NCBI RefSeq assembly: GCF_010378095.1
Contig: NZ_WNJL01000037.1
Coordinates: 475,001 to 539,000, forward strand
Length of the DNA stretch: 64,000 bases
Source of the DNA: Acidithiobacillus ferrianus
GTDB taxonomy: Bacteria > Pseudomonadota > Gammaproteobacteria > Acidithiobacillales > Acidithiobacillaceae
Direction of reading: 5' to 3'
Positions 43,584 to 60,161 of the stretch are shown one piece after another. Within the stretch, counting starts at the first letter, position 1, and each line of letters begins with the position of its first letter. The position numbers and the translations under genes were made by a program. The notes beneath the pieces were generated by a model. That model worked only from the letters and a program-made list of their open reading frames with translations, was not told where the DNA came from and did not search any database.

Positions 43584-43778
43584 CTAAGCATTAGACCAAA
43601 ATTCAGTAATTCTGTTCACGACATGCGGTTGCTTACTGTCTGCATAAGGTGATGTATGAAGTTGAGAAATTGTAAGCACAAAGCGACCGTCGGCCACGGC
43701 TACTTCCACAATGGCACATGGTTTCTGCCCCCCCAACAACCGCCTCCCTCCGTCGACTGCAACACTAAAACACCGCAT
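43584..43778 (-). CDS. Possible small protein downstream of the TPR-sulfotransferase
   Basis: 64 residues from ATG 43778, which follows the upstream stop by a single base (TGACATG). The composition is protein-like (CAIVEVAVADGRFVLTISQL) but there is no known family. The tight junction supports translation by reinitiation; otherwise the evidence is weak. The remaining ~120 bases to the slp start show nothing. Confidence 0.3.
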   Translation of the reverse strand: MRCFSVAVDGGRRLLGGQKPCAIVEVAVADGRFVLTISQLHTSPYADSKQPHVVNRITEFWSNA

Positions 43779-43779
43779 G

Positions 43780-45426
43780 TCATTCAAAGTCTATAATGTC
43801 CTGATACAAATGCCACCGCCCTATCGCGGTGCGGTAAAGTGGCTGCTTGACTTGCGCGTAGCTCGAAGTGATGCAGGCCGTATTCAGCTCATGAAATCTT
43901 GTGAAATCATAGTTGGGAATTATTCCGATAAATTTAGAAATCTCCGGCATCACAGATGTGGGATAATAAACCAGACGTTCATACTCTATCGTTATGATAT
44001 TTTCTGGAAACAGTAGCTTCCATCTATTCATAATCTCAATATGGGCACGGAACTGAAAAATAATATCAGAAATAGTAAACTTATATGGATGATTCCCGGA
44101 AAAGTTGTGTGCAAAACAAGAAAGCGCAACGTCTCTATAATCTCTAACAACATGAATAATTCTGGCGTCAGGAAACAATTTCACAATGAGTGGAACAAAC
44201 TGATAATTGAATAACATTTTATCAGCATGCTTTAGATTCCCTCCCACCAAACGATAGGCCGCTTTCAATCTCGTCGCCAAAGATAACACTGAGTTTTTAT
44301 TTAAGTCATCTAAAAATCCAAGGTAGTTAACAACGTCACCGTTGCTGATCTGGCGGACGACACGGCCTACATAGCCTGGCTCCCCGTGTCCGAATATCTC
44401 TCCACTTTTGACAAGCATCTTTTCAATCAGAGAAGAGCCGGCTCTCGGCATGCCTACTATAAAAATATTTTCTCTATTATTGTTTATTCCACATATATTA
44501 TTTGGCTCATATCTCATACACCTACCAACAAACATGGATACGGCAGATCGGTCATAACGCTCAACACAGGCAGAAGAGTTCGCCTTAATATAAAATGAAT
44601 ATGCCTCTTCAAAATTTCCTAGTTTGTCAGCTAAGTCACCCAAGATAAATATTAGTGAGCTTCTATCTTGGCTTGACAATAGGAATAATTCATTTTTTGT
44701 AAGCCATTCTTTTATTCCATTAAATGAAGAACGTCTGGTGCTTGTATCGCAATGCATAGCTGCACGTCCGTAGGCCAATGCTACTGCATGTAGATCAGTA
44801 TTTGGCATGAGCCGCTCTACAGTCGCGAACGCCTCCTGATATTTTCCCTGTCTTTCCAATGCAAAAGAGCGCAACGCAGCGACTCGGTCAGAATCCCCAT
44901 GGCGATTTACAATATGGTCCAACAAAGAAATTGCTGAATCCGGATGGCCAGCGTTACTCAAAAGTGATACCTTGAGATATTTGGCTTCCACGTTGGCATC
45001 ATTAACGATAATAGACCTATCTATAAAAGCTAAAGCATCCTCACGTTTGCCAGCGACATCCGCACAAACAGCAAGCAACATGAGCACCTGATCATTGTCT
45101 GCGTCGCTAGCCAACAATGGCAGCAATATCGCTTCGGATTTTCCATAGTGCCCCAGCATTTGATAGGATCTTGCTAACTGCAACGCAAACTTTAAACTAT
45201 TTGGAACGCTTACATGCGCCCTGTTAAATATAATTGCCGCTTCTTTAAATAATAAATTTTTATAGTAAATCATCCCAAGTAAAAAAAACCACTCAGCATC
45301 GACATTTTTGTGCGCCCGCAGATAGTCTATAGCGATTGCTTCCGCTTGACCAACATCCCTACTTCGCAACGCTCGATCAACTTCAAAAAAGACCAAGTTA
45401 TTGACCTCGACAGTTATTTCAGGCAT
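43780..45426 (-). CDS. TPR-repeat sulfotransferase
   Basis: About 548 residues (ATG 45426; TTG 45435 has the better-spaced AGAGAGG). Residues ~1-270 are TPR-like helical repeats. The C-terminal sulfotransferase has the PAPS loop NIFIVGMPRAGSSLIEKML and the 3'-phosphate site ARIIHVVRDYRDVALSCF. It is AT-rich compared with housekeeping neighbours, suggesting transfer. It sits 97 bases downstream of a TonB receptor on the same strand, with a hairpin between. TPR-sulfotransferases modify proteins, peptides or glycans; the acceptor is unknown. Confidence 0.85.
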   Translation of the reverse strand: MPEITVEVNNLVFFEVDRALRSRDVGQAEAIAIDYLRAHKNVDAEWFFLLGMIYYKNLLFKEAAIIFNRAHVSVPNSLKFALQLARSYQMLGHYGKSEAILLPLLASDADNDQVLMLLAVCADVAGKREDALAFIDRSIIVNDANVEAKYLKVSLLSNAGHPDSAISLLDHIVNRHGDSDRVAALRSFALERQGKYQEAFATVERLMPNTDLHAVALAYGRAAMHCDTSTRRSSFNGIKEWLTKNELFLLSSQDRSSLIFILGDLADKLGNFEEAYSFYIKANSSACVERYDRSAVSMFVGRCMRYEPNNICGINNNRENIFIVGMPRAGSSLIEKMLVKSGEIFGHGEPGYVGRVVRQISNGDVVNYLGFLDDLNKNSVLSLATRLKAAYRLVGGNLKHADKMLFNYQFVPLIVKLFPDARIIHVVRDYRDVALSCFAHNFSGNHPYKFTISDIIFQFRAHIEIMNRWKLLFPENIITIEYERLVYYPTSVMPEISKFIGIIPNYDFTRFHELNTACITSSYAQVKQPLYRTAIGRWHLYQDIIDFE

Positions 45427-45473
45427 TGCTGACAATAAACCTCTCTTTCAGAGCCAATAAAATCCCTGAAAGG

Positions 45474-45496
45474 CCCGCCCCTAAAAATGAGGCGGG
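45474..45496 (-). terminator. Hairpin between TonB receptor and TPR-sulfotransferase genes
   Basis: CCCGCC (45474-45479) pairs with GGCGGG (45491-45496) around an 11-base loop, starting ~28 bases after the receptor stop on the minus strand. It is followed by CCTTTCAGGGATTTTATT, only weakly T-rich. It could attenuate transcription into the sulfotransferase gene. Confidence 0.4.
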
Positions 45497-45523
45497 AATC
45501 ATAACGTAACAATTAGACAAGCT

Positions 45524-47917
45524 TTAGAACGCGAAACTTAGCGTACCAAACACTGCTCTGGGCGCGCCCGGATTGACAATTTCATAGCCCGCGGTATTTG
45601 TGTTAAAATACCCGCCGCCAGTAATGTCAGCAGTAGAATTATATTCTCTGTTGAATAAGTTGGTAACGTTCAGTGAGAATGCAGTGTACCGAATTCCAGG
45701 TATCAGTCCATTAAGAGCACTCGTTCGCGCATCAAGTTCCATGTTGACCACATTGTAGCCGCCAATCTTTTGGTGGAATGAAGGTGCGCCATCATTATTA
45801 TTGAAGATGAATTGCGCCCCGTAATATTGATCAAAAATTGTTGCAGATACCCTGCTCCGTACAAAGTTGAGATACTTACTGTAGGTCACACCAATATTCG
45901 CAGTCACGTCAGGTGTCGCAGAAACCGGAGCTCCATTATACGATTGATTATCTGCAGTAGAAAAATACTGAGTATAATAAGCGTGAATGAATCCAACGTT
46001 GGAAAACATCGACCAGTTATGATTAATCTTTGCGTCCAACGATAGATTGACGCCATTAAGAATCGCATTCCCGTAACTGAAAATGGTATACAACGGGTTC
46101 GTGGGTGACGTAACAGGAATCGTCTCATTGCTCAGTTGATCGTGAAAATAGTTTGCGTCAGCGAACACATCGTCAAGTCCTAAAAAACCCTTTTGATGAA
46201 ACTTGACGCCTGCTTCATAATCGTCACTTTTCACCGGATACAAAGTTCCCAGCTCCGTTAGAGGACCAGCAGCCGCATTGAAGTTTCCGGCTGTTGGATT
46301 TTGATAGGTCACTGAATAATTTCCATAAATGGCAATGTTACTTAGCAGCTTATAATTGACACCAAAGGATGGCTCCCACCTCTGGTATTCTTTAGCAAGG
46401 CTGGGAGATGTACTGTATGATGCATTTGGGTACTCTGCGGCTATAGACGGTGCATTTTGAAAAAAATGCGTTTGGAAATCCATGAAATCTAGGCCAGGAA
46501 CAATGGTGAGGCCAGGCAGCGGTGTGATACGATCCTGCAGGAACCCCGATGCGTAGGTTTCTACGTAGTTATGATTCGTAATTGAAGTCGGATTCCCCGG
46601 ATAAGGGTTTCCATCGATGCCAGGGATAGGATTACCTGTTAGACTATTACCGCCAAACCCATTCACGTAGGTATTCCCTGCGATGACATATCCGCCGAAT
46701 GCTACTCTGTTCATGGGCAAGTGAACCCCGAAATCTAATTTGTCTCCATAGGTGTTCGTGTGCCAATATGTTACTTCGGCTCCGGAGTTGCTATTCGGCG
46801 GATAAAAATTATTGACTCCGTAATGGTTCAGTACGCTATTCCTGTACCACATTTCGTTCGTTAAATTAACATTACTGGCTATTTTAAGCCGTTGGCGGCC
46901 ATATAGAAGAAACATGTGATCCTGGTCAATCTTATGCCAGACAGATGTGGGTAGCGTCGAATAAAAGCCTGTCGAACTCTGGCTGTATGGCGTACCATTG
47001 GGTAAACCGCTGAGGGTTACGCCGGGGATTGGTGACAAAGGGATTTGGTTGGGTCTGTATGATTTGGCGTCGACGTAGTAAGCACCGAAGCTGTAGCTAT
47101 TGCCGTGATAGTGTTTTCTAAGCTTGAAAAATAGCTCCTCACTGTGGTTGGGTAGATATGAACCTGTTCTGAAACTGTGGCCATGCGCGTAAGCGCCGGC
47201 GATGACCGCAGACCAACCATCAAATCTTCCTGTATCCGCAGATGCCGATACAATTTTAGATCCAAAACTTCCATAGGAGAAGGCCGCCTTTGCTTTGGCG
47301 TGACGACTCGGCTGCACCGGAAGAAAATTAATAGTGCCCCCAATACTGTCAAACCATCTACTTCTGGGGTTCCCAGGGCCATATATGGTGTTGATGCCGG
47401 AAATAAGCGACCCTATGGGTGTTTCTACGGTGTGAAAGCTTTTTCCCTCATCCAGATTTTGGATGGGGATGCCGTCGAACAATCCTGTGATTCCGTTATA
47501 TTCCAAATTTCCACTATAACTCGTGACACCGACTTGTATGCCCCGTATTGAAATTGTGGATCTGTTCGAGACACCCGTACCATCTGGGCCGCTTAAGTAC
47601 ACTCCAGGTTGTATGCTCAATGCCGCTGTGGAGCTGGCGTTTGGGCCGAAAATTTTAGCCTGTTTGGACGTCACTCTGGCTACACTTTGAGTCGAATTAA
47701 ATATTTGATCGTTGGTTAAGAGTTTGCTCGAGAAGGATGAGCCTGCAGTTTTTTTCTTTTCGGGGTTTTTTGCCGTCTTTTTTACGTTACCAACATAATT
47801 GCCCTTTGTCGGTTGTATTGGTTTTGTTTGTGCATTGGCATCCCCTGCATAAAGAAGTACTGCGGTGGTGATGACAGCCAGCGCCAACGCTGGTTGTGGT
47901 TTATTTTTTTGCGACAT
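45524..47917 (-). CDS. TonB-dependent outer-membrane receptor (copy 1)
   Basis: 797 residues with signal peptide (LAVITTAVLLYAGDANAQ). An N-terminal linker with NYVGNVKKTAK probably holds the TonB box. The plug has RSTISIRGIQVG, GLFDGIPIQNL and INTIYGPGNPRSRWFDSIGG. The 22-strand barrel ends in Phe (VFGTLSFAF). There is no FecA-type signalling domain. It is paralogous to the receptors at 57864 and 60354 (shared IFNSTQS/IFQSTQS linker, YGPGNP plug, GAPR ending). It is followed by the TPR-sulfotransferase. Confidence 0.92.
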   Translation of the reverse strand: MSQKNKPQPALALAVITTAVLLYAGDANAQTKPIQPTKGNYVGNVKKTAKNPEKKKTAGSSFSSKLLTNDQIFNSTQSVARVTSKQAKIFGPNASSTAALSIQPGVYLSGPDGTGVSNRSTISIRGIQVGVTSYSGNLEYNGITGLFDGIPIQNLDEGKSFHTVETPIGSLISGINTIYGPGNPRSRWFDSIGGTINFLPVQPSRHAKAKAAFSYGSFGSKIVSASADTGRFDGWSAVIAGAYAHGHSFRTGSYLPNHSEELFFKLRKHYHGNSYSFGAYYVDAKSYRPNQIPLSPIPGVTLSGLPNGTPYSQSSTGFYSTLPTSVWHKIDQDHMFLLYGRQRLKIASNVNLTNEMWYRNSVLNHYGVNNFYPPNSNSGAEVTYWHTNTYGDKLDFGVHLPMNRVAFGGYVIAGNTYVNGFGGNSLTGNPIPGIDGNPYPGNPTSITNHNYVETYASGFLQDRITPLPGLTIVPGLDFMDFQTHFFQNAPSIAAEYPNASYSTSPSLAKEYQRWEPSFGVNYKLLSNIAIYGNYSVTYQNPTAGNFNAAAGPLTELGTLYPVKSDDYEAGVKFHQKGFLGLDDVFADANYFHDQLSNETIPVTSPTNPLYTIFSYGNAILNGVNLSLDAKINHNWSMFSNVGFIHAYYTQYFSTADNQSYNGAPVSATPDVTANIGVTYSKYLNFVRSRVSATIFDQYYGAQFIFNNNDGAPSFHQKIGGYNVVNMELDARTSALNGLIPGIRYTAFSLNVTNLFNREYNSTADITGGGYFNTNTAGYEIVNPGAPRAVFGTLSFAF

Positions 47918-48063
47918 TGCGATTTCCTTATAGTGACTTATGGTAACTCGCTAGAGAATATCAGACTAATGTTACAGGAGTGCGTCACTGAGGTGACCTA
48001 AATATTTTTATTGATTACATTAACATGACGTAAACGGATCGCTTGGGATATTTTTCAGGATAG

Positions 48064-48670
48064 CTAATCACGAGTTCTTGGTCTTTTCCCCGTCCATGCG
48101 GCATACAGCACCGGGGCCAACCATAAGCTCATCACCGTTCTCAGTGTCAGTCCACCCATGACTGAGATGGCCAGGGGCTGCAGCAGGTCGGTTCCGCGCC
48201 CGATGCCGATGGCGAGGGGCAGAAAGTCGAAAACATCGGCCAGCATTCGTCATCAGGATGGGCCGCTGGCGCTGACGGGCAGCAAACGCTACGCTGGCAG
48301 CTTTTGGATGGTTCCCATCCAACTGGCGAGCACGGGCGAAGATCAGGATTACGTTGTTCACGGCGATGACGAAGACCAGCAAAATTCCCAGAAATGCCGT
48401 GCCGTCCAGTGACGTATGGGTGATCATCAACAGAATCAGTGCCCACGACGCCGCCAGCGCTATGGGAAAAATCGCCACCGTCGCCGCTTTCTGGCTGCCG
48501 AACTGAAAACCTAGCAGAATCAGCAGCACGCAGACTGAAATACCTGCGGCTGGGTACTACACAGAGCTTCTGAAATAGCTTGGGGCAGGGTGAGGGAAAC
48601 TCCATCTGCAGCCGCGACACTTGGCAAAATGCACACTATGAGAACCGTTAAATATATATGAAATATCAAT
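48064..48670 (-). pseudogene. Relic of an RND efflux system: outer-membrane-factor start fused to RND pump end
   Basis: At the upstream end the frame reads LTVLIVCILPSVAAADGV then SLTLPQAISEAL, the signal peptide and opening of a TolC/CzcC-like outer-membrane factor. After a stop and frame change near 48555 the sequence is the C-terminal part of an RND pump: LLILLGFQFGSQKAATVAIF, TAFLGILLVFVIAVNNVILI. A further frameshift leads to DFLPLAIGIGRGTDLLQPLA and SLWLAPVLYAAW. A large deletion has therefore joined two genes of one efflux operon. Confidence 0.75.
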
Positions 48671-48689
48671 GTACATTATCCACAGCCAA

Positions 48690-49254
48690 TCAGTCTGGCA
48701 TTGATTTGCAGTCTGCAACGGCATTATCACGAATCAGTTGCTGAAATTGTGCCGACGTACACAGATCGTGTCCGGGCCTTCATGACATCCAGGCATGAGA
48801 CCAGCAGTCACCACAGGTTTGTAATAACGTTTCTGTAGTACTGCGTTGCGCATCTCTTCTAACTTGAAATAGAAAATACGTAGCCCGATATACCTTTGCC
48901 CATTCGCTTCTTGAAGAAGTTCAAAAGCTAACTCCATATCCGGAGGGCTCGATCAGGGTGCGCGATAAGCTGATAACGTAGATGCAGCATCCCAAAAACT
49001 TCTGAAAGATTAACATCATGACCTATTAAAATCAACATGTTTGCACGAGATAAGAACTCGGAACTTGAGATGGTGCCTGATATCTATTAGTAGACCCGAG
49101 GAGGCTGACAATCAACTTCATGACTGGCGTAGCTCCGTGCCGTGCATAATAATGATCCTCTCGCGCTATCCTGGCATACAGATTCCGAAGATACAGCATA
49201 TGACTCATCACTTTCAATGAGCAAACCTTTCCCCATCCCACCTGATTGCACGGC
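48690..49254 (-). pseudogene. Histidine acid phosphatase (AppA/phytase-like), 3' part
   Basis: C-terminal half of the gene whose 5' half lies at 52416-53131. The reading passes through three frames: VGWGKVC, HMLYLRNLYARI and RHGATPVMKLIVSLL; then MLILIGHDVNLSEVFGML with the catalytic HD motif; then MELAFELLQEANGQRYIGLR and IFYFKLEEMRN; finally CTSAQFQQLIRDNAVADC to TGA 48690. These align in order with the second half of E. coli AppA (GWGRIT, FIAGHDTNL, ELVFERW, FQTLQQMRD, C-terminal Cys pair). At least two frameshifts make it dead. Confidence 0.8.
49247..49254. repeat. 8-bp target-site duplication, left copy
   Basis: TGCACGGC, repeated exactly at 52416-52423 immediately outside the opposite end of the inserted element. 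Eight bases is the duplication length known for ISL3-family elements. Confidence 0.8.
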
Positions 49255-49431
49255 GGCTCTTCGTCGGATCGAGTGGGTAGGGGGGTGGTAGAGGGCCGGG
49301 CCGAAAAGACATCACCTGGTCGGCGGACGCTCCCGTCGACGGCTGCGCAGGCACAAAAACTTTATCAACATGGCCTACCTGATCCTGGGTAAACAGGATC
49401 TCAGGCTACCCACTTAAAACGTCGAGGAACC
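49255..49431 (+). mobile_element. Mini-ISL3 (internally deleted copy) at the left end
   Basis: It has the left inverted repeat at 49255 and a right end at 49352-49431. The latter is nearly identical (77 of 80 bases) to 52336-52415, including the transposase C-terminus (HKNFINMAYLILGK). Everything between is deleted, leaving a 177-bp MITE-like unit. Confidence 0.75.
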
Positions 49432-49547
49432 CAGGAAGTTTTACAGATTGAGCCTTTCCCGCGATTTTCTCCTTACGTCATCTCAAAATCGCGAGATAGC
49501 CGAAAACTCGCGGGAGACTTCTGAGCGATTATCGTCCCTCCGCCCGC

Positions 49548-49853
49548 TCACTTGTCAGGTGTTCTGTGATGCTGTGCCCAAGTCTTGGCAGCCAATTGGG
49601 TGTAGGTGGCTTTTTGTGCGGGATTGAGCAATGCATAGCCTTGGAGATGGTAAGGAACCATTTCCCATCCTAATCGCATTTCTGCTTTCCCAACGCGGAT
49701 GATGTCACCTTTTATCGTTGCCAAGGTCGGATGTGCGGTAGCGGCGTCCTTTTCGTACTTGTCATATGCGTGCTGCAGTGCCCTGTCATCCTCGATGGTG
49801 TGCATAGCCATCTCATCCTTGATCTGGCTTTCCCTCTGGATTTGTCCGGGCAT
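49548..49853 (-). CDS. Small hypothetical protein, Spy/CpxP-like in style
   Basis: 101 residues from ATG 49853, or MAMHTIED further in. The helical sequence contains VGKAEMRLGWEMVP and ALLNPAQKATYTQLAAKTW, reminiscent of the LTPEQR-type repeats of CpxP/Spy metal-stress proteins, but no signal peptide is seen. It is the leftmost cargo gene of the ISL3-type element and is separated by ~270 bases from the aldolase operon. Confidence 0.5.
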   Translation of the reverse strand: MPGQIQRESQIKDEMAMHTIEDDRALQHAYDKYEKDAATAHPTLATIKGDIIRVGKAEMRLGWEMVPYHLQGYALLNPAQKATYTQLAAKTWAQHHRTPDK

Positions 49854-50053
49854 TAGACAATCCTTATAACAGTAAATATCTCCAGGTAAAACTAGGAGAT
49901 TTGGTTCGTGAACCGCTTAAAGCAGATTGAAGAGAAGCTAATACGCCTCCCAACCCACAGTCTAATCCAAGTCGGTTTCCTTTGCATAAAGGAGGTACAA
50001 AACGCGATATTTAGGAATCAGGCTGTGCCTGATCTCTTGATACCAATTTTCCA

Positions 50054-50081
50054 GTCTTCCCCACGCATGTGAGGGGAAGAC
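50054..50081 (-). repeat. Hairpin resembling a single type I-E CRISPR repeat
   Basis: GTCTTCCCC and GGGGAAGAC form a 9-bp stem around ACGCATGTGA, extendable by CAC/GTG with one bulged A. It lies 45 bases after the stop of the last aldolase-operon gene, so it may be that operon's terminator. The first 18 bases (GTCTTCCCCACGCATGTG) look like a type I-E CRISPR repeat, but only one copy is present. Confidence 0.5.
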
Positions 50082-50125
50082 GGGGGTTGCTGGGTGCTTA
50101 CCATCGTTGCGTGAAGGGCGCACCC

Positions 50126-50512
50126 TTAATTGCCTACGTAACCAAATTCTCCGCGCCATTGTACATGTTTAATATCCAGACTCAGCCAGCGCGGCAGGAA
50201 CGGTTCCACTCGCTTGATGGGGAAGGTTTGCAGATCGGGTACCGGTTGGTCGGATATCAGGCAGGTCTTCGTGCCGACGGCGCGGAACCCGATCCGTACT
50301 TGCTGCTCGCCGCCATCAAGCAGGAGGGCGTCAGGATGTTCTGACTCCAGGAACAGCACCTGTTTGCGAATCATGCAACTGAACAGCAATTCGAGATGTA
50401 CGAGCAATGGTGTCTCACGTTGCGCGAGCGCGCGTCGAGCGGCGGCGGTCAGGCGCAGTTCGATTGTACCGGCGAGTGTGCTGCTGGATTGCGCCGAGGT
50501 GACATCACTCAT
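50126..50512 (-). CDS. Unrecognised protein, last gene of the aldolase operon
   Basis: 128 residues from ATG 50512, overlapping the preceding CMD-like gene by 8 bases. It opens with TIELRLTAAARRALAQRETP, contains one Cys in ELLFSCMIRKQVLFL and another in VGTKTCLISD, and ends WLSLDIKHVQWRGEFGYVGN. It is soluble, with no membrane segment. I do not recognise the family. Tight coupling to the CMD-like, PadR and aldolase genes indicates a shared function. Confidence 0.7.
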   Translation of the reverse strand: MSDVTSAQSSSTLAGTIELRLTAAARRALAQRETPLLVHLELLFSCMIRKQVLFLESEHPDALLLDGGEQQVRIGFRAVGTKTCLISDQPVPDLQTFPIKRVEPFLPRWLSLDIKHVQWRGEFGYVGN

Positions 50513-50894
50513 TGGCGTTGTCTCCTGTGGATTCCCGCAGGGCCTGGCTGACCACTTGGACGCCCAGGTTGTAAGCCGGCATGCCGCCGACAATGGCTGC
50601 CGTTTCGCACACGCCGTGCAGCTCAGGCGCGTCTGCGCCTGCCTGGATTGCGGCACGTGCATGCAACAGAGCGGGTGCCTCACGGCCAAGTACCAGAAGC
50701 ATACCCAGATGGACAAGCTGCTGGGTTTTGCGTTCAAGCGGATTGTGATGGATTAACGTGTCGCGCAGGTGCTCGATGGCCTCGAGAGCGATCTCTCGGC
50801 CGGCCATGCGCGCCAGATCGATTCTCATGCGTACGCCATCGGGGATATATCCGAATAGTTCCTTGTAACGTGTCTCAACGGGAGTTTCATTCAT
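50505..50894 (-). CDS. Carboxymuconolactone-decarboxylase-like protein
   Basis: 129 residues. The CMD-fold pattern is RKTQQLVHLGMLLVLGR, HARAAIQAGADAPELHGVCE and AAIVGGMPAYNLGVQV. The CxxC found in AhpD-type members is absent (LLHAR at that site), so a peroxidase role is unlikely; it resembles the gamma-CMD branch. ATG overlaps the padR stop (ATGA). Probably an enzyme or binding protein acting with the class II aldolase. Confidence 0.8.
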   Translation of the reverse strand: MNETPVETRYKELFGYIPDGVRMRIDLARMAGREIALEAIEHLRDTLIHHNPLERKTQQLVHLGMLLVLGREAPALLHARAAIQAGADAPELHGVCETAAIVGGMPAYNLGVQVVSQALRESTGDNANE

Positions 50895-51271
50895 TTAGCG
50901 GATTCCTTAAGTGCTCGTGCGTTGCGGGCCGGCAGCGCATCGTAGCGTTGGATAAAGAGATCGAAGGCTTGTCGGCGGCGCGCAATGTCCTCGCGCCAGT
51001 CTGCCAATTCGTCAAGACCCACTGGTGTGATCTGGTAAACGCGGCGTGCCGCTCCAGAACCGACAGTGCTCCACTCCGAACGCAATGTGCCGCGCGCCTC
51101 CATCTCCCGCAGCAGGCGGTACAGATTGCCGACATCCACTTTGAGCCCTTCCGGCAGCAATTTATTGATGCTGCGGTGAAGGGCCAGGCCATGTGTCGGC
51201 TCTTCTGCACAGAGGAGCAGCGCAAAACTTGCCAGGTGTCGGCCCTGGCGATTGGACTCTCTGGGTCTCAA
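50891..51271 (-). CDS. PadR-family transcriptional regulator
   Basis: 126 residues from TTG 51271, which overlaps the aldolase stop (TTGA). The winged helix shows LASFALLLCAEEPTHGLALH, LKVDVGNLYRLLREMEARG and RVYQITPVGLDEL, the hallmark PadR pattern. PadR proteins often sense phenolic or other small aromatic effectors and repress their own operon. It is embedded in the operon between aldolase and CMD-like genes. Confidence 0.88.
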   Translation of the reverse strand: MRPRESNRQGRHLASFALLLCAEEPTHGLALHRSINKLLPEGLKVDVGNLYRLLREMEARGTLRSEWSTVGSGAARRVYQITPVGLDELADWREDIARRRQAFDLFIQRYDALPARNARALKESAK

Positions 51272-51930
51272 GACGCCTTCCGAAAACGTTGCATGCGTTC
51301 CGCCACTTCGCGATAAGCGGCATCGGGCAGTGCCTTTTCTCCGCCCAGGACGCGCGCATGCAGTACCAGCTCTGCGGCCTCTTCCAATGCCGTCAGGCGG
51401 TTCAGTGCCACTTCAGGAGTATCGCCCGTCACCAGTACGCCATGATTGGCCAGCAGCACGGCTACCGTATCGGGCCTATCGAATGCCTCGAGTATCCCAT
51501 TTACCGAGGCGCTCGAACCGCGCGGCGCCCAAGCGACGACGGGCACATCGGTATGCATGCCTTGGCGCAGCATCGGTTCGTAAACTGCGGGCACGGACTG
51601 CTGGGCGACGGCGAACGCTGTGCTGTGGGTCGGGTGGCAGTGAATGATCGCGCAGATGTCCGCACGATGCCGGTAAAGCCGGGTGTGCATCTCAATGATT
51701 TCGCGATAATTGGCATCGAAATCAGACTGCAGACCTTCGGCCGCGACCGGAAGCCAGGAGAGGTCCTTTTCACCCAGATTGGCGACCGAACCGCCACGGG
51801 TGATAAGCAGGCGGTCGTCCTGCCGCGCAGAAAGATTGGCGTGTGCACCACGGAACAGCAGACCGCGCTCACGCAGCGCATTGGCGGTACGAATCAGTTC
51901 CTGTGCCAGATTTAGTGTGCTGTCAGTCAT
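51268..51930 (-). CDS. Class II aldolase/adducin-family protein
   Basis: 220 residues from ATG 51930. The metal site is intact: IIHCHPTHSTAFA gives two His ligands and LLANHGVLVTG the third, with the candidate acid/base Glu in REIIEMH. LFRGAHANLSARQDDRLLIT is the substrate-phosphate region. The family includes fuculose-, ribulose- and tetronate-phosphate enzymes; the substrate cannot be named. It is first gene of the operon; the 270 bases upstream run to the IS fragment and must contain the promoter. Confidence 0.88.
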   Translation of the reverse strand: MTDSTLNLAQELIRTANALRERGLLFRGAHANLSARQDDRLLITRGGSVANLGEKDLSWLPVAAEGLQSDFDANYREIIEMHTRLYRHRADICAIIHCHPTHSTAFAVAQQSVPAVYEPMLRQGMHTDVPVVAWAPRGSSASVNGILEAFDRPDTVAVLLANHGVLVTGDTPEVALNRLTALEEAAELVLHARVLGGEKALPDAAYREVAERMQRFRKAS

Positions 51931-52203
51931 GAATCACCTCACAGTTAGATGTTTATTGGAAATATATGTAAATCACATATACATGGCACAAGAATACTCT
52001 TGGCTGTGAAGCAGTGCAAGCCATTTAGAACGTGAGGCGCATGCCGGCGGAGATGCGGCATTTGTCGGCGGTATGAAGGTTGCCATAACTCGGTTAGCGG
52101 TATGGGGATCTCTCTGCAAAAAGGGTGCCAAAAATCACGCAGGAAACTCCGCATTATCCTAAATTCACAGGAGACACAAGTATTCTGGCATTCCCCGCCC
52201 CCG

Positions 52204-52401
52204 GTGTCAGATACCGTCTTGAACCATTGGGATGGCGTGCTCCGCTGGTTCGAGAGCCAGATCAACAACGGCATTCTCGAAGGCTTCAACAGCCTCATCC
52301 AATCCGCCAAGGCCAAGGCTCGGGGTTACCGCACCCACAAAAACTTCATCAACATGGCCTACCTGATCCTGGGTAAACTGGATCTCAGGATACCCACTTA
52401 A
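52204..52401 (+). pseudogene. ISL3-family transposase, C-terminal fragment
   Basis: The reading includes LNHWDGVLRWFESQINNGIL, EGFNSLIQSAKAKARGYRTH and FINMAYLILGKLDLRIPT, then TAA. NGILEGFNSLIQ...AKARGYR is the conserved C-terminal region of ISL3 transposases (DDE domain). Everything upstream of ~52204 is missing. It forms the right end of the inserted element. Confidence 0.88.
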
Positions 52402-52415
52402 AACGTCGAGGAACC

Positions 52416-52423
52416 TGCACGGC
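52416..52423. repeat. 8-bp target-site duplication, right copy
   Basis: TGCACGGC, identical to 49247-49254 and directly outside the right inverted repeat (GAGGAACC). The phosphatase reading resumes here on the minus strand (GESFLMEWMESRA). Confidence 0.8.
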
Positions 52424-52800
52424 TTTCCATCCACTCCATCAGAAAAGATTCACCCACTGCATTGGCTACGTGAAGAGCTCCATTTATGTACATGGTTTTT
52501 TATTACAACTTTGTTTGGACTATTCAGCGCACATACACAGCGACCTTTTTGTCTAAGTCAGGGCAAAGAATATTTTTTATTTCATCCATATAGATTACGT
52601 ACTTATAATTATTGAGCAATGGATGTGAAATAGATTGCAGGTAGTGCTTTTCAGTAATGGATTTGTTCACAGGACATGCGTGCATTTTAACGGCATGGAA
52701 CAGAGGATCCTTACCATGAAGGACATGTCCGACTGTTACATGCTGAATTGGCCTGAATCCCTCCACAACACCGTCGCCGGTGGCGACAGTTCTTTCCATG

Positions 52801-52840
52801 TTATCCGCAAACACTTTTAGCTAAAAGTGTTTGCGGATAA
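52801..52840. repeat. Perfect 40-bp palindrome without a spacer
   Basis: Left arm TTATCCGCAAACACTTTTAG (52801-52820) is followed directly by its exact reverse complement (52821-52840). Read on the minus strand, the arm at 52821-52840 is antisense to the arm that encodes KVFADN of the phosphatase, so the left arm is native and the other is an inverted copy. No T-tract follows. Confidence 0.9.
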
Positions 52841-53192
52841 GCGTATATCGATTGATATAGTGCCTATAGTATGTTGAAATACCAAGACCCATCATCCTGG
52901 CTAAAAAGACCCCGTTTTCCGATAAAAACTATGTTTTATACTCCATGAAGGCCATCTATGACTCGACCACCGATCCAGTACCGCCCTGCTTTTTGTAGGA
53001 GATCGCACACTGTGGCGCATGAAAATAATTACTTTTTTAATAGTGAGGCTTGGATTACTCCTTGACGTGCTAGCGCTTTCAGTAAATAGTGATACTAACA
53101 AAAGCACAAATATAAACAACAAATTATTCATTACACCACCTCTCTAATATACCGCTATACTGCTGACCAATTCAGAAAAATGTCGAACCATT

Positions 53193-53774
53193 CTACCAAA
53201 CTTTAAATATCTTAGGAATTCGTGGTGATCTAAAAGCATGCAATAGTGCCACACTGATGTGCACCCACCAATATACCCAGACGAATTCCGAAATATAGTC
53301 GTGAATTTTTTTAGGAATTTGATAGATATGTATCGGTGCGGAAACTCCAAAGTTTGGGATAAGAAAAAACATGGTGACGCCAGTAAATGCCATGCCTGTG
53401 ACTGCAAACAATCCAAACCCTTGGACGAGGCCTGGAAGTCCTCCACGGAGTCCAGATTCTGGGAGATAACCTTTCACCATACCTGCAACGTCTGCACAAA
53501 TATTTTGCAGATAAGTTCCACGATAAGGAAACAGATGAGCACGAACCTGCTCGTTATAATATATTTGTAGCCAGAAAAGCGCGATGACGACAGCCGTAGT
53601 CATTCCCACCCACATATGTGCGTGGAAAAGAAGATGACGAAAATGAAGCTCTCCTTTCCTTTTCCAGATCGCCTTCATATCCAGTTCACTCATCAACTCG
53701 AAAGTCATAAGTACCGCAAGACAAATGTGAAGCCACCTAGTAGTTTTTGGCCACTCTAAAGTTCCCATACTCAC
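53193..53774 (-). CDS. Cytochrome b561-type membrane protein
   Basis: 193 residues from GTG 53774 (GGGAG upstream). It has four likely membrane helices with His positions typical of di-heme b561: TRWLHICLAVLMTFELM, LLFHAHMWVGMTTAVVIALF, LFAVTGMAFTGVTMFFLI, and HDYISEFVWVYWWVHISVAL. It would pass electrons from quinol or a periplasmic donor across the membrane. Placed between tonB and the phosphatase pseudogene in a receptor cluster, ferric-iron reduction is a possible role (inference). Confidence 0.8.
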   Translation of the reverse strand: MSMGTLEWPKTTRWLHICLAVLMTFELMSELDMKAIWKRKGELHFRHLLFHAHMWVGMTTAVVIALFWLQIYYNEQVRAHLFPYRGTYLQNICADVAGMVKGYLPESGLRGGLPGLVQGFGLFAVTGMAFTGVTMFFLIPNFGVSAPIHIYQIPKKIHDYISEFVWVYWWVHISVALLHAFRSPRIPKIFKVW

Positions 53775-53983
53775 TTAATTATTCTCCCTTTATATTAAAA
53801 TATTTACCGCTTCACGTGCTCAGCTGATGATCAAAGCCAGCGATAACTATACCCTTGCTTTGTGACAACCATGCGTCATTCATGATGACTATCATATACC
53901 ACCAACTTGTATAATTGCCACCAGCGCAAACTCCTCTGGTTTATTATAAAATCAGGTTCCTTACTTGATGACTATGATTATTG

Positions 53984-54697
53984 CTAAGTCTTAATGTGTA
54001 CATCGACTACAAATAAAGTATCCGTTTTCGGCATTTTTCTAGAAAATGCCGGGTATATAATGCTTCTAACGGCTTTCTCAGCGGTACGGTCCACAGCGCC
54101 GATACCGCTACTTCGTGATATTTTCGCCCACAGGACTCTGCCTTGTGGGGTCAATTCAAAGGACACCACCGTCATGCCTGAAAGACGCATCAACCGCAGT
54201 TCTTCCGGGATCCGCAAGTTAGCCTGAATTAATAACCGAACCTCTGAAACATAAAGGTCTACCGCCGACTGGCGCGCTGCCGGACTCGGTGCGGGCGGCG
54301 ATGGTGGCGCGAGCGGGGTCACCGGTGGCGTGTATACCGGTGCCCGCGGTGCGGGCGTTTTGGCGAGCAGCGGTTTGGGCGGCAGCGGATGATGCGCCAC
54401 CGGATGCGGAACTGGCCTCGGTATGGGTTTGGGCAGTGGTTTCGGGATCGGCTTCGGATGCACCACGGGCTTCGGTGGCGGGGGCAAAGGTTTGGGCTTG
54501 GGTGGTGCCGGTTTAATCATGTGGATCGCCATAATCTTTGGCTTTGGCTTGACCGTCACCGGCTGCGACAGATGGGAATAAATCAGTCCCCCGATCATCA
54601 GCGCCTCTATAACGGCACCAATCATCAGCGCCCTTCCGAAGTGATCCTTCTTGAACTTTGGGGACTGAACCGGGGAGGAGAGGGTAGCGGCGTTCAT
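53984..54697 (-). CDS. tonB: TonB energy-transducing protein
   Basis: 237 residues: cytoplasmic N-terminus, one membrane helix (LMIGAVIEALMIGGLIYSHL), then a long Pro/Lys-rich periplasmic spacer (residues ~50-140, KPKPLPPPPKPVVHPKPIPK), and the TonB C-terminal domain with LYVSEVRLLIQANLRIPEEL and GMTVVSFELTPQGRVLWAKI. The first periplasmic residues contain an Ser-x3-His-like pair only loosely (YSHLSQ). It works with ExbB/ExbD encoded ~8 kb upstream in the same direction. Confidence 0.92.
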   Translation of the reverse strand: MNAATLSSPVQSPKFKKDHFGRALMIGAVIEALMIGGLIYSHLSQPVTVKPKPKIMAIHMIKPAPPKPKPLPPPPKPVVHPKPIPKPLPKPIPRPVPHPVAHHPLPPKPLLAKTPAPRAPVYTPPVTPLAPPSPPAPSPAARQSAVDLYVSEVRLLIQANLRIPEELRLMRLSGMTVVSFELTPQGRVLWAKISRSSGIGAVDRTAEKAVRSIIYPAFSRKMPKTDTLFVVDVHIKT

Positions 54698-54771
54698 ACG
54701 TTCTCAAAATCCTTGCATAGGCCGGGTCGTGGCACGGAATATTCGGCGATTTTCGCGGTTGCACTGTTTGT

Positions 54772-57660
54772 TCAATGGAGCTTCCCTTCATTGGCTTCAT
54801 AGCTGGCGATGGTCGCCCCATGGACTTGGGCATAGTGATGTAAGTAGGCCATAAAATGGTCGTAGCTTTTGACCCCCTTGCTGGCGATCCACTCCTGCTT
54901 CAACTGCTCAGGACCGCTGACCTTGAGCAGGGAAGTGGGGGTATAGGCGTTCGCCGCACTAACCGGCGCCAGATGCCGCCCGTGGGGACCGGTATGCGCC
55001 TTCAACCATTCCGCAGTCAGCATATGACCGGTGGCCCCCGCCTCTTTTCTGAGCAAGGTCCGATTGCTGCATTTACCCGGATTGAAAGACACCGGCACCT
55101 GAATCGGAAGCACCGCCGGCGTCGGCGCGAAATCCGGATGATCTGTCCAGATGCCCGCAATGACGGAGGCATTGGCATCCCACTGGGACATGGGCGGCAG
55201 ACCCAAGGCCGCTTCAATGGTTTTGACGATATTCACCTGGGAATCCAGATGCGTTTCCAGCACGCCTTTTTTGACCCAGGGGCTGATGATCAGCGCAAAA
55301 GTACGATGACCATTGATATGATCGGCGCCGGACTGCGCATCGTCCTCGGTTAGGAAAATCGCCATATGCTTCCATTGCGGCGTCGTGGACAGGTAATGGA
55401 TGAATTTGGCCGTGGCGTAGTCGTTATTGGCTACGTAATAATCTGGCGCGTAATAGCAGGGATCCAAACCTGCGGTATGATCATCCGGTATCCAGATATA
55501 GATGAAATGCGGAAATTTTACGCCCGGATGTGCCTTAAGCCAGTGTTCTGCCAGTTTCTCACGAGCCGTATCCAGAATCATCCGATCCCAATAGGGATAA
55601 CGGACATCCATATGCTGCAGTAAACCAGTACGAATGACACCATCCCGCCGTCGCGTCACGTTCTCGCCAAAATCCTCAAAACTGACATGATGTTCCAAAA
55701 GATCATTAAACAAATAGAGCTTTTCAGGATAACTGATCCAGGGATTGGTATGATCTCCCAGTGGCTGGTAGATATCATAGGGGTTGTGCGCACCTGGTGC
55801 GGCGGGCTTGAGGGAGGAGCTGCCGCCGGGACCGGCGTTCCAGAGCAAACCGCGGTTAGAATAATATTCGGGCCACAAGCGCTGCACCACATCGGAATCC
55901 GAAGCGCCATCGGTCCACTGATGACCCTGTGCGGTGACTTCCCCGTCGGCCATGAAATTCACGAACAGCGCATAATGGTGGGCCAGATTATATAAGTTGG
56001 GCAATTCTTTCTGGTTGTACAGATCAAAATGCGGATCCGCCCATTTGCCAGCCGCCGTGTAATCCCCTAAATCTTCATCAAAGGTCTTATTCTCACGCAG
56101 GATGAATACAACGTAGTGAATATACTTGCGCAGATAGGTGGTGGTTTTGACATTCTCCTTGTGACGAGCGCTGCGCTGGGCCGACGTAAAACCATCGTTG
56201 TGCAAAGACTTCTCGGTCCAATCGGCCAGATGGGCCGGGATTTCCTTGAGAGCCACCTTCTGGATCACCCCGTGCATCATATTGCCGATATACTGCCACT
56301 GCAGATTGGGCCCGGAACCCAGACCTTTGGCACAGCTGATATATAAGGCACCATTCGCCACCGTCAGGCTGGTCGGGTACCAGGCCGTGGGAATCAGACC
56401 CAGACGCTTGCCCGTGCGGATGTCATACACCGCCACATCATTATTACCGGCATTGGCGACATAGAGCCTGCCATCGGCAACCGCAAGTCCATCCGGATAG
56501 CTGCCGGGAGGGGCATCGGGATAGGGGCTGTCATCCACCACCTGCAGCGGACGCAAGCTTTGCGTATCGACTTCCACCACCTTGTCGACATTGGCGTCGG
56601 CCACAAAGACGTCGGGACTGTCGGGCACCACAACCATCGCCGTAGGATGCACACCCGCCGCCACTGTTGACGGGCCGACCGTCGGCCCGGTGGGAATTTC
56701 CCCCATAACCTCCAGGCTTTGCCGGTCCAGCACCACAACGCCGTTGCCCGCCCAGTCGCTGACCACCAACCGCTGCCCGTTATCGGCCAGGGCCACAGCA
56801 AAGGGGTAGGCGCCGACATTGACGTATTCGGTCTTGCCACTGGCGATATTGATACGCGCCAGACTGTTGGAGAGCATCCCCGTCACATAGAGATGCTTAT
56901 TCTGGGGACCGACGACCACCGAGTCCGGATAAAAGAGATATTGCTTCTGCTGATTCCCCTGATACTGATAGGGATACTGATCCTTCGGAAAAGCCTGCCA
57001 CTGCAAAGGATACCGATGAATCACCTCAACCTTGCCCTGCACACTGCGCAAAGCCACCACCTGATCAGAATCACCTCCTGTAGCGTAGAAGGTACCATCC
57101 GGACCGGCAGTAAGCCCTTGGAAAAAGTCGCTGTGCGAAATGACCGAAGTGGGAATGGCTTGGGGATCGCTCTCGGCGGCAAGTGTGGCTTTGGCCTGGG
57201 CAATTTTAAGTGCAGCGCCTTCTTTTGGAACATACACAACACCTGCCGCACCCGCATGTTGCGGATTGATCGCGATACCACTACCACCGAGTGTTGCATG
57301 AGCCACCGGTTTAACGGGCGCCACTCTCGAAAACGCTACTAGCCGATCTACCCGCTGAAGATCCTTTCCGTCATAAAACGTGATGCTTTGAAAAGGTGTT
57401 GCACCGTTAGCCATCACGGCAATACGGTTTTCATCTGCTGCTACCACCGTGGGGAAATTCGGGGTGCCGTTAATGACACCGGTCGGCGTCACTATGCGGC
57501 CCGTGGGCAATGTGGCTGTGTAATTTACTCTATTTTGTGAATCAAGTTGAACCGAACTTAAAACATGCCGATTCAGGGGTGTGGCCAGGGCAGAAGGTAA
57601 GTAGCATAACGATCCTGCAACTATGACGCTGATAACTGTCTTCCTAGTCATATTATTCAT
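54772..57660 (-). CDS. Secreted YncE-like beta-propeller / phosphoesterase fusion
   Basis: 962 residues from ATG 57660 (AGGAG upstream) with a signal peptide (VISVIVAGSLCYLPSALA). Residues ~50-480 form a seven-bladed propeller of YncE type (GNGVVVLDRQSLEVMGEIPT, VADGRLYVANAGNNDVAVYD). Residues ~530-900 are an AcpA/phospholipase-C-like phosphoesterase: VVFILRENKTFDEDLGDY (metal Glu and nucleophile loop), FMADGEVTAQGHQW, IPDDHTAGLD, and FLTEDDAQSGADHINGHRT. It probably cleaves phosphate esters in the periplasm or at the outer membrane. It lies between the receptor genes and tonB. Confidence 0.88.
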   Translation of the reverse strand: MNNMTRKTVISVIVAGSLCYLPSALATPLNRHVLSSVQLDSQNRVNYTATLPTGRIVTPTGVINGTPNFPTVVAADENRIAVMANGATPFQSITFYDGKDLQRVDRLVAFSRVAPVKPVAHATLGGSGIAINPQHAGAAGVVYVPKEGAALKIAQAKATLAAESDPQAIPTSVISHSDFFQGLTAGPDGTFYATGGDSDQVVALRSVQGKVEVIHRYPLQWQAFPKDQYPYQYQGNQQKQYLFYPDSVVVGPQNKHLYVTGMLSNSLARINIASGKTEYVNVGAYPFAVALADNGQRLVVSDWAGNGVVVLDRQSLEVMGEIPTGPTVGPSTVAAGVHPTAMVVVPDSPDVFVADANVDKVVEVDTQSLRPLQVVDDSPYPDAPPGSYPDGLAVADGRLYVANAGNNDVAVYDIRTGKRLGLIPTAWYPTSLTVANGALYISCAKGLGSGPNLQWQYIGNMMHGVIQKVALKEIPAHLADWTEKSLHNDGFTSAQRSARHKENVKTTTYLRKYIHYVVFILRENKTFDEDLGDYTAAGKWADPHFDLYNQKELPNLYNLAHHYALFVNFMADGEVTAQGHQWTDGASDSDVVQRLWPEYYSNRGLLWNAGPGGSSSLKPAAPGAHNPYDIYQPLGDHTNPWISYPEKLYLFNDLLEHHVSFEDFGENVTRRRDGVIRTGLLQHMDVRYPYWDRMILDTAREKLAEHWLKAHPGVKFPHFIYIWIPDDHTAGLDPCYYAPDYYVANNDYATAKFIHYLSTTPQWKHMAIFLTEDDAQSGADHINGHRTFALIISPWVKKGVLETHLDSQVNIVKTIEAALGLPPMSQWDANASVIAGIWTDHPDFAPTPAVLPIQVPVSFNPGKCSNRTLLRKEAGATGHMLTAEWLKAHTGPHGRHLAPVSAANAYTPTSLLKVSGPEQLKQEWIASKGVKSYDHFMAYLHHYAQVHGATIASYEANEGKLH

Positions 57661-57863
57661 TAATCCGGCTCCTAAAAACGCATGTTGGCAGAAACAAAGA
57701 GTGACGCTAAGACGTAGAGTTGGTGATAACTCTGTTTCAATAATCTCCCAATATCGCCCTTTCATGCGTGTTAAAACTTGAGTGAAACCTCACCTAAAAA
57801 CCTGCAATGGAGCACTGGGATAAGCAAAAAGTGAAGGCTGTTCATCAGACTGATATCCCACAA

Positions 57864-60161
57864 TTATAAATACGCTGTTAGAGATCCATATACTGCTCTC
57901 GGCGCACCTGGATCAGCCAGTACGGCACCAGCACTATTTGGACCCAGCTCACCTCCGCTGGAAATATAAGCCATACTGTTGTAATGACGATTGAAGAGGT
58001 TAAAAATCTGCAGCGAAAATTTTATTTTATGAAACCCAGGCACCAGATGCATGGCGGTGGTTACAGAGAGTCCGAGATCGACAATATTATATGCAGGATT
58101 TTGTGCATTCGTCGGTTCATTGGTGATATTGGAAAACAAGGTTGTGGAGGAGGTATAGGTATCGGAGAGGCGAGCATTCCAGAGTGCCGCTATTTGATAC
58201 CAGCGGTAGCCGACTCCAAAGGATAGCGACGTCGTTGGCACGTTAGGCATGCGTGCTCCATACAAAGGCATCCCAGAGGCGGGCCGATAGGTGGGGTAAT
58301 AGGCATGCTCGAGGGTGTCGTTGGTGAACAACTGCACACCCAATCGTTTACCATAGTTCGCGCTAAAATTCACCCCATTATAGATGGCGCTTACCTGATC
58401 TAATTCGGTGATCAGCAGGGAGGGAATAAAACTACTCAGCACGGCGTTGGTCAGATGTTGGTGGAAGGCGCTGACTGTGCCGTCCCATGGGCCAATATCC
58501 CATTTTACTCCGCCGATGTAGCTGTTAATGGAAGTTGGGTTTCTTGGCACAACCACTGTGGCCTGATCATAGTTGCCATAAGCGTCCGCAGAGGGAGTCT
58601 GGAAGTTCTGTGACCAGGTAGCAAAAAGATGCAATCCCTGCAGGACACGATAGTTTATGCCCAAACTCGGGATGAGTTTTGTATAATTGCTAACATTATT
58701 GGCAGCCAGGTTGCGAACTATATATGGTGTAGCTCCGACCGGAATCGTAGCATTGGAATTATTGACGAACTGGACTCGATAGCTCATTAAGGCCAAGCCT
58801 GGCGTAATATGTAGTCCCGCCAATGGCGTGATGGTATCCTGAGTAAAAATGTTTGCGCCTTCCCAATCATCATAGTAGCCAGCCACAAAAATAGGATTCG
58901 CAGGACTGCTCGCAAATACGGCAGGATTATAGCCGAGATAGGTGTTGTGATTACGCTCGTCCATGATGTAGCCGCCTACCTGAAGGTGGTTCCATGGGAG
59001 TGCGGCAGAAAGCACCAGCTTGTCCCCTAGTGTAGCAGTGGTGTTGGTAAAATCTTCCGTGTTCACAAGATGGAAATAATAATTATTTGGACGGTTGTGG
59101 TGCCGATATCCGTTTCGATACCAGAGCAGATTATCCATGTGAATATTGCTTGCGAGTCGCAGATGGAGTTTGGCATAGCCGAGGAACATATGGGCTGTGT
59201 CATTTTTGAAGTATAAGGAAGTGGGTATGGTATAGGTATAGCCGGTTGTCTGTTCGCTGTAAGCGGGGCCGGGTTGCTGATATCCATTGACCGAAACCCC
59301 TGGAATGGGAGAGACGGGAATATACATGGGGCGATATTCGCTCGTCCGGCTGAAGTAGAGCCCGACGCTGGCATGCCCGCCGGTGAAATCCTTGCGGGTT
59401 TTCATATAGAAGGCAGCACCCTCGTTAGGCGCATAGTAAGGATCGGAGCGGAAACCATTGCTGCGCGTGTACCCTGCAGCAAAGACTGTACTCCAGCCAG
59501 ACAAGTCACCGGTGCGAAACACGGCCGCCGCAGAAGGGGAAGAAAAGCTGCCATAGCCCAGAGCGACCTCGCCTCCCATATGCTTGCCAGGTTCCTGAGG
59601 GATAAGATTTACAGTGCCACCCATGCTGTCATACCAGCGGTTATCTGGATTACCTGGGCCTTGTGTGACCCGAATGCCAGAAAATATGTTAGAGATTGGG
59701 GTTTCCGAGCTTTCCCATCCATCCCAGTTCGATAAAGGGTTGTTCATGGGCACACCATCAAAAGATACCGCGATGCCATTTTTTTCCGGATTACCTGCGC
59801 TCAAAGCCCACCCTGTCTGGATGCCATTGATGCGAATCTGGTAGCGGGCGGCACCGTTACCCGAGCCATATCCATTGATGTGTACGCCCGGCGCAACGGT
59901 AAGGGCGTCGACAATGGTGCCACCCGGAGCCACCTCGTTGGCGATTTTGGCTGCACTGATATAAGTAGATGGGGTATTACTGCGCAACAATCTTGCCACT
60001 ATTTTCTTAGCATTTGTTGAAGACGTTTCTGCGCTACTTTGTGAAACATTCCCAATATTTATTGGGCTATTATTGTCTGAGTAAGCATTGCTAGATATGG
60101 TTAATGCTGCCAGTGCGCATGTTGAATGAAGCAGGTTTTTAGTGCCAGGTGCCAAGAGCAT
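57864..60161 (-). CDS. TonB-dependent outer-membrane receptor (copy 2)
   Basis: 765 residues; start ATG 60161 with GGAGAAG upstream. Signal peptide region LLHSTCALAALTISSNAYSD, then INIGNVSQSS as probable TonB box. The plug has RYQIRINGIQTGW, ISNIFSGIRVTQGPGNPDNR and WYDSMGGTVNLIP. The barrel end is SSGGELGPNSAGAVLADPGA then PRAVYGSLTAYL; the last residue is Leu, not the usual aromatic. It is paralogous to copies 1 and 3, and 203 bases upstream of the phosphoesterase gene. Confidence 0.92.
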   Translation of the reverse strand: MLLAPGTKNLLHSTCALAALTISSNAYSDNNSPINIGNVSQSSAETSSTNAKKIVARLLRSNTPSTYISAAKIANEVAPGGTIVDALTVAPGVHINGYGSGNGAARYQIRINGIQTGWALSAGNPEKNGIAVSFDGVPMNNPLSNWDGWESSETPISNIFSGIRVTQGPGNPDNRWYDSMGGTVNLIPQEPGKHMGGEVALGYGSFSSPSAAAVFRTGDLSGWSTVFAAGYTRSNGFRSDPYYAPNEGAAFYMKTRKDFTGGHASVGLYFSRTSEYRPMYIPVSPIPGVSVNGYQQPGPAYSEQTTGYTYTIPTSLYFKNDTAHMFLGYAKLHLRLASNIHMDNLLWYRNGYRHHNRPNNYYFHLVNTEDFTNTTATLGDKLVLSAALPWNHLQVGGYIMDERNHNTYLGYNPAVFASSPANPIFVAGYYDDWEGANIFTQDTITPLAGLHITPGLALMSYRVQFVNNSNATIPVGATPYIVRNLAANNVSNYTKLIPSLGINYRVLQGLHLFATWSQNFQTPSADAYGNYDQATVVVPRNPTSINSYIGGVKWDIGPWDGTVSAFHQHLTNAVLSSFIPSLLITELDQVSAIYNGVNFSANYGKRLGVQLFTNDTLEHAYYPTYRPASGMPLYGARMPNVPTTSLSFGVGYRWYQIAALWNARLSDTYTSSTTLFSNITNEPTNAQNPAYNIVDLGLSVTTAMHLVPGFHKIKFSLQIFNLFNRHYNSMAYISSGGELGPNSAGAVLADPGAPRAVYGSLTAYL

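Follow-up and report, generated by a model that had tools for sequence, protein, structure and literature searches.

Mobile insertion cassettes (MICs) consist of passenger genes held between the ends of an insertion sequence (IS) with no transposase gene, and they have been described for other IS families than ISL3. Here we describe a unit with ISL3-type ends that carries an operon for a class II aldolase, a PadR regulator, a CMD-family protein and a 128-residue protein termed P4. It lies at positions 49255-52415 (3,161 bp) of a 64,000-nucleotide stretch of Acidithiobacillus ferrianus contig NZ_WNJL01000037.1, which is referred to as the window. The ISL3 elements of Acidithiobacillus (ISAfe1/ISTfe1/IST1 and ISAtc1-3) resemble it most closely, where its left end is 97% identical to that of ISTfe1 over 30 bp, its right end is 83-91% identical to ISL3 copies in relatives over up to 203 bp, and an 8-bp duplication is common to both. 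These elements are, however, about 1.3 kb long with a transposase gene, whereas the unit keeps the last ~60 transposase codons and carries 2 kb of cargo. ISAfe1 has been reported to transpose (PMC10322971, PMC10214660) and is present in 28 copies in A. ferrooxidans CCM 4253 (PMC10322971); the word 'passenger' appears in neither main text, as far as these were accessible.

ISL3 elements with passenger genes are known as well. In the accessible parts of the sources, ISPst2a/b are described with ISL3 ends, 8-bp duplications, a length of 2,985 bp and an ArsR regulator and a permease as passengers (PMC6305408), and ISPpu12a as a member of the ISL3 family with two extra genes (PMC4133298). Unlike the present unit they encode their own transposase and their cargo is unrelated, and the same parts mention no internal second right end. 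The Tn3-family TIMEs and mosaic elements are transposase-less miniatures with ends that allow adjacent DNA to be mobilised in trans (PMC4133298, in the part accessible); their ends are of the Tn3 family, and mobilisation is experimental for these elements but inferred for our unit. Cargo capture between ISL3 ends is a known kind of event, and neither this unit nor its cargo was found in any paper by our search, which covered few subscription papers. The locus, for which the empty site is available, would be an example of an entire operon carried between IS ends that have lost the transposase gene. It occurs in a genus that is used for bioleaching, where an ISL3 element is reported to be active.

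Boundaries of the unit and its empty site

The 3,161-bp stretch interrupts a phytase-like gene, and its insertion duplicated 8 bp of the target, as insertions of ISL3 elements do (Table 1). The unit starts with the left terminal repeat (IRL) at 49255 and ends with a right terminal repeat (IRR2) at 52415, and exact copies of TGCACGGC abut both ends. The window flanks, joined with one TGCACGGC, were run against 17 Acidithiobacillus genomes and were present in two of them, the window's own and that of a relative, G007. Since this relative keeps the site uninterrupted, the stretch is shown to be an insertion. Contig C235 of G007 aligns through the flank joint at 90% identity with TGCACGGT occurring once (7 of the 8 bases of the target copy), a 4-bp indel lies nine bases past the joint, and, the unit excepted, both flanks are collinear with the window. 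In the search for the unit, which scored the five top candidates of each genome, the cargo had no match in G007 (for the aldolase, none at E<=1e-20) and the ISL3 end alone matched.

The G007 frame is open across the insertion point (L096:1-933, open at the contig edge) and its 5' part is located on another contig (L097:4210-4731). It resembles the AppA-type phytases/acid phosphatases (NCBIfam PRK10172, E 7.6e-37), and with 127 bits against a cut-off of 585 this is a family resemblance only; no Pfam match was observed at E 0.01.

The ends of the unit match those of ISTfe1 and ISAtc3 and therefore belong to the ISL3-type terminal inverted repeats. IRL is identical to IRR2 at 18 of 25 positions, and four full ISL3 copies that we compared score 19-20/25. 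Twelve loci were fetched for the ISL3 3' end (L009-L018, L035 and L036) and their ends were located by script with mismatch limits; both ends were found in nine of them, giving lengths of 1301-1304 bp, and exact 8-bp duplications were observed in eight of the nine (L009, L011, L012, L014, L015, L017, L035 and L036, but not L016). An origin of the unit ends by chance was ruled out by 100 shuffles of the window, in which no match is expected to the left end (26 bp) or to the core of the right end (24 bp) with up to three mismatches. The octamer TGCACGGC alone is not rare, with 8 occurrences in the window against 4.3 expected, and the evidence for the duplication is therefore its position at both ends together with the empty site. 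A further right repeat, IRR1, is found inside the unit, and the two right ends (49346-49431 and 52330-52415) form direct repeats of 86 nt that are 94% identical.

The original prediction, made for this stretch from its sequence alone, had proposed these coordinates and ends with an exact duplication on both sides, inverted repeats agreeing at 18/25 positions, two ISL3 right ends in the same orientation and a single target copy in the uninterrupted allele. All four were borne out, the last with 7/8 bases in G007. The operon standing at this place without IS ends would have spoken against an insertion; this could be examined in G007 alone, where the place is empty.

As a separate observation, a perfect 20-bp palindrome with no spacer (52801-52840) is located inside the broken phytase-like gene and is 92.5% identical over 40 bp in G007.

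Table 1. Features of the unit and its insertion site, with positions in the window
Feature	Position	Strand	Remark
Interrupted AppA-like phytase/acid phosphatase gene, 3' part, decayed to short frames	48734..49241	-	
Target duplication, left copy TGCACGGC	49247..49254	+	single TGCACGGT in empty site of G007
Mini-ISL3 element, 177 bp (left ~72 bp + right ~99 bp)	49255..49431	+	itself an IRL+IRR pair
IRL, ISL3-type left terminal repeat	49255..49280	+	first 30 bp 97% to ISTfe1 left end (L035)
IRR1, internal right terminal repeat	49406..49431	+	no duplication directly behind
5'-truncated small gene ('CpxP-like')	49548..49853	-	176 aa in G011
Cargo block common to G005 and G010 without ISL3 ends	50094..52124	-	93% nucleotide identity
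P4, 128-aa uncharacterised protein	50126..50512	-	Cys46 and Cys84 invariant in 22 aligned relatives
CMD-family protein, 129 aa, no CxxC	50505..50894	-	PF02627 E 1.2e-10
PadR-family regulator, 126 aa	50891..51271	-	PF03551 E 1.1e-13
Class II aldolase/adducin-family enzyme, 220 aa	51268..51930	-	PF00596 E 8e-30
Dyad TATATGT-N5-ACATATA, candidate PadR operator	51963..51981	.	unique in window, 0 expected in shuffles
Joint between cargo and ISL3 remnant, 88 bp	52125..52212	.	52198-52222 an exact 25-bp match in G013
ISL3 element 3' end, 203 bp: last transposase codons and right end	52213..52415	+	PF01610 E 5.6e-14
IRR2, right terminal repeat at inserted boundary	52390..52415	+	G011 homology ends exactly here
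Target duplication, right copy TGCACGGC	52416..52423	+	abuts IRR2
Interrupted AppA-like phytase/acid phosphatase gene, 5' part, two short frames	52524..53131	-	

Composite make-up and proposed mode of movement

The unit is non-autonomous; it has ISL3 ends and no intact DDE transposase, and is not an IS. Both flanks of the cargo are ISL3-derived fragments in direct orientation. On the left is a mini-element whose left 72 bp resemble a 537-bp mini-element in genome G011 (L023:5933-6469, 88%), and the first 30 bp of these match ordinary ISL3 copies. On the right is a 3' remnant that is 91% identical to a copy in G013 and 90% identical to copies in G004, in which the transposase is reduced to its C-terminal end (PF01610 profile positions 189-239 of 240). 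This remnant was found to be the sole ISL3 transposase match in the host's own draft genome (NF033550 positions 316-369 of 370, below the cut-off), and the ISL3 3' end was matched in 11 of the 16 other genomes of the genus. The window holds a bounded insertion that keeps both ends and lacks the transposase, and in this it resembles MICs and TIMEs. The locus had been described as an ISL3 transposon with passengers, and this description holds for a bounded ISL3-type insertion carrying genes and fails for a self-moving element, as there is no transposase gene.

A second genome contains most of the stretch at another place and with an identical right boundary. This is G011, the one other genome among 57 (own included) with such a copy, where 49389-52415 is found at ~98% identity in two pieces split by 225 bp. 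The homology stops exactly at 52415 and is followed by different sequence (ATTTGCCA...). On the other side the copy starts at 49389, inside the internal right end (IRR1), beside unrelated sequence, and its left end is lost. The aldolase frame of G011 has one in-frame TAG and the C-terminus of its PadR is altered while its small gene is whole; the window copy shows the reverse, with the aldolase and PadR intact and the small gene truncated. An ancestor with all five genes whole would be the simplest reading of these two states.

We consider it likely that the unit is a non-autonomous ISL3-ended composite built around a pre-existing operon, moved by a transposase acting in trans and carrying a PadR-regulated cargo. 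An operon with an upstream region of its own would have become enclosed by a mini-ISL3 element on one side and, pointing the same way, a 3' remnant of ISL3 on the other. A copy of the ISAfe1/ISTfe1/ISAtc type (not found in the draft) would then provide an ISL3 transposase in trans, and this enzyme would recognise the outer IRL and the far IRR2, pass over the internal IRR1 and move everything between the outer two. Because the cargo brings its own upstream region, the operon would be expected to be expressed wherever the unit lands.

Several observations weigh against this explanation. The boundary at IRL is seen in the window only, given where the G011 copy begins, and the whole 3,161 bp may never have moved as one. 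The target copy in G007 has 7/8 bases and G007 is an 85%-complete draft; the host draft, in 90 contigs, could hide intact or collapsed ISL3 copies, and three further short matches to the right ends of the unit occur on other contigs. Furthermore, recombination between two ISL3 copies could replace what lies inside a resident element without altering its duplication. A lone ISL3-type element might accordingly have hit the phytase gene with its 8-bp duplication, and homologous recombination between ISL3 copies might have brought in the operon afterwards. This course would likewise give the duplication and the empty site, the 203-bp remnant and the mini-element form the kind of patchwork that recombination could make, and the left end in G011 falls inside a repeat. 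We nevertheless regard such an assembly in place as unlikely, since G011 has the joint of cargo, 88 bp, ISL3 remnant and IRR2 elsewhere, with 97-98% identity and an exact break at IRR2, and movement of a block would account for this in a single step.

Two minor observations concern other ISL3 loci. In G011, two ISL3-derived pieces stand in a row (L023:4917-6469), a 528-bp deleted copy and the 537-bp mini-element, with no matching duplications, and they are possibly a further composite. On plasmid pTcM1 of A. caldus, an iscB gene (L036:3245-4519) lies ~0.5 kb from ISAtc3.

Cargo operon, candidate operator and occurrence elsewhere

All four cargo frames are open and overlap by 4, 4 and 8 bp, and the aldolase, PadR, CMD protein and P4 would form one translationally coupled unit. 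The start of P4 was set by choice at the ATG at 50512, which is backed by its relatives; the longest frame begins further up. Compared with NCBIfam, the aldolase scores best against RU1PAldHalo (102 bits, cut-off 300), and all 25 models shown of 30 are below their cut-offs. The equivalog scores thus place it in no class of known substrate, such as ribulose-1-phosphate aldolase, FucA, AraD or MtnB. The CMD protein similarly falls short of PcaC, the 4-carboxymuconolactone decarboxylase (TIGR02425, 38.6 bits against a cut-off of 155.7). The aldolase may split or rearrange a small sugar-phosphate or hydroxycarbonyl, and the CMD protein and P4 may act on its product or on a thiol partner.

The small gene is 176 residues long in G011 (L019:8619-9149), where 225 bp more are present at the position of 49850/49851. 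No Pfam or NCBIfam family was observed to back the name CpxP. The original prediction was right about the tightly overlapped operon of aldolase, PadR, CMD-like protein without CxxC and 128-residue protein; a CpxP-like gene as working cargo is unsupported, the gene being 5'-truncated in the window.

The dyad ahead of the aldolase consists of two 7-bp arms with a 5-bp spacer and is located 33-51 bp upstream of the aldolase start. Operators with ATGT/ACAT arms are known for PadR regulators. We compared ten aldolase upstream regions, with G010 and G013 left out, and found ATGT-N5-ACAT in six of them (window, G011, G005, G397, G084 and G012), where those of the window, G011 and G005 are nearly the same sequence and do not count as independent. 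ATGT-N7-ACAT is present in two more (G291 and G396), making 8/10 in all, and GTGTAA-type dyads were noticed, by eye only, in G385 and G029. The dyad is a candidate binding site of the cargo's own PadR, which may bind it and repress the operon until an inducer appears.

The cargo block was also found in G005 and G010, where the 20 kb examined per genome contain no ISL3 end; in both genomes the block adjoins a helicase-like gene of 1,037-1,039 aa. In G291, of the Acidihalobacter family, the operon is 87% identical over 50104-52093. Since two other Acidithiobacillus genomes and Acidihalobacter have the operon without ISL3 ends, it was not put together by the ISL3 element. The cargo had been described as an unfamiliar combination; it is not peculiar to the element, being present without such ends in other acidophiles. 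It may be the catabolic or detoxification module that was also proposed. Weaker sets are aldolase-PadR-CMD in G012, G013 and G084, aldolase-PadR-P4 in G385 and aldolase-PadR in G029. The aldolase is rare, and lies in acidophiles among the carriers whose organism is identified. It was matched in 7/57 relatives at E<=1e-20 and in 5/369 genomes of a class sample at E<=1e-50 (own included in both), in one of 398 genomes of a phylum sample at E<=1e-45 (the window's own), and in four of the five genomes in the family of G291 at E<=1e-40. In PLSDB, 11 records match the unit, all from Acidithiobacillus; their best places cover 8-9% of it and are ISL3 transposases where annotated, with no cargo. No paper in our search brought PadR, a class II aldolase and a carboxymuconolactone decarboxylase together.

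One finding in G005 is a further point against the composite. Its operon block starts ~960 bp upstream of an OMF-MFP-RND efflux operon that points the same way, and a remnant of this efflux operon lies at 48057-48656, 0.6-1.2 kb to the left of the window's unit (83% and 79% to G005). We cannot explain this nearness other than by chance or by a shared hot spot. It would suit an operon that is ancestral near the efflux operon, with ISL3 pieces that merely landed on either side of it. We consider such inheritance in position highly improbable, as the phytase gene of G007 is uninterrupted and collinear with both window flanks and the exact duplication would have arisen by chance (~4^-8). G005, moreover, has no match to the phytase flanks of the window, and the operon regions of G010 and G011 (20 and 18 kb) have nothing else in common with window positions 40001-60000. 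The remnant itself joins a C-terminal RND part to the start of an OMF gene, and is longer in G005 (L020:3050-8414).

Whichever way the operon arrived, it could be in the course of being lost and have no function at this site today. The missing transposase, the truncated small gene, and the in-frame stop and altered PadR in G011 suggest such a relic, which is possible although we do not favour it, since the four frames are open and the dyad is intact in the window. In addition, with ISL3 3' ends so frequent in the genus, a transposase in trans is conceivable.

P4 family and the egt neighbourhood

P4 belongs to a family with an ELLFSC(M/L) motif (L037-L095) that is found in many sulfur-oxidising bacteria, for example Thiobacillus. 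None of 50 relatives has a precomputed Pfam domain, and no sequence relative was found in the PDB (best E 0.78). That P4 is an A-type Fe-S carrier (IscA/SufA/ErpA) is doubtful; structure rows of low Z, with AQ_1857 and hi1723 as two further IscA/ErpA-like rows, were suggestive, and the profile comparison was unsupportive. The 59 P4 loci came from one peptide pattern, and the four-gene operon occurs in two of them. An AhpD/CMD-like gene is located upstream of P4 within 3 kb in 15/59 loci, 13 of these within 500 bp; the four AhpD/CMD query proteins came from P4 loci themselves, which count among the 15. The neighbour scan covered 51/171 candidate frames and two picked by eye, with crude gene calls. 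Elsewhere, the neighbourhood of the gene set includes egt genes and thioredoxin, with AhpD-like genes beside P4.

In the Acidihalobacter family, the operon adjoins the ergothioneine cluster egtB-egtC-egtD in three of the four genomes with the aldolase, where aldolase-PadR-CMD-P4 stands in one array with egtC-egtB, and egtD is divergent. The fourth, G385, shows none of the egt genes in the 16 kb that were examined. In one genome of the order to which the window belongs, egtB-egtD and aldolase-PadR are arranged divergently. The unit itself has no egt gene, and EgtD was matched in 0/17 genomes of the genus, own included. Ergothioneine was therefore rejected as the function in this host, the link consisting of loci in other families, and no paper in our search linked ergothioneine with Acidihalobacter.

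We offer it as a tentative and rather improbable suggestion that the cargo is a portable branch of an undescribed thiol-linked pathway, detoxifying or recycling a carbonyl or sulfur compound that is handled elsewhere with ergothioneine, and that the ISL3 ends spread the operon to acidophiles not making ergothioneine. The gene set, with its conserved upstream dyad, was found in few lineages among the genomes sampled, acidophiles where the organism is identified, and its neighbourhood elsewhere makes a thiol-related function testable.

Two further egt-like loci were noticed. A Thiobacillus metagenome-assembled genome has egtB- and egtD-like genes (L084:12-2105) ~6 kb from P4. The EgtB-like protein of G291 (L111:8818-9975) scores higher as the selenoneine synthase SenA (265 bits) than as EgtB (250 bits), both below their cut-offs.

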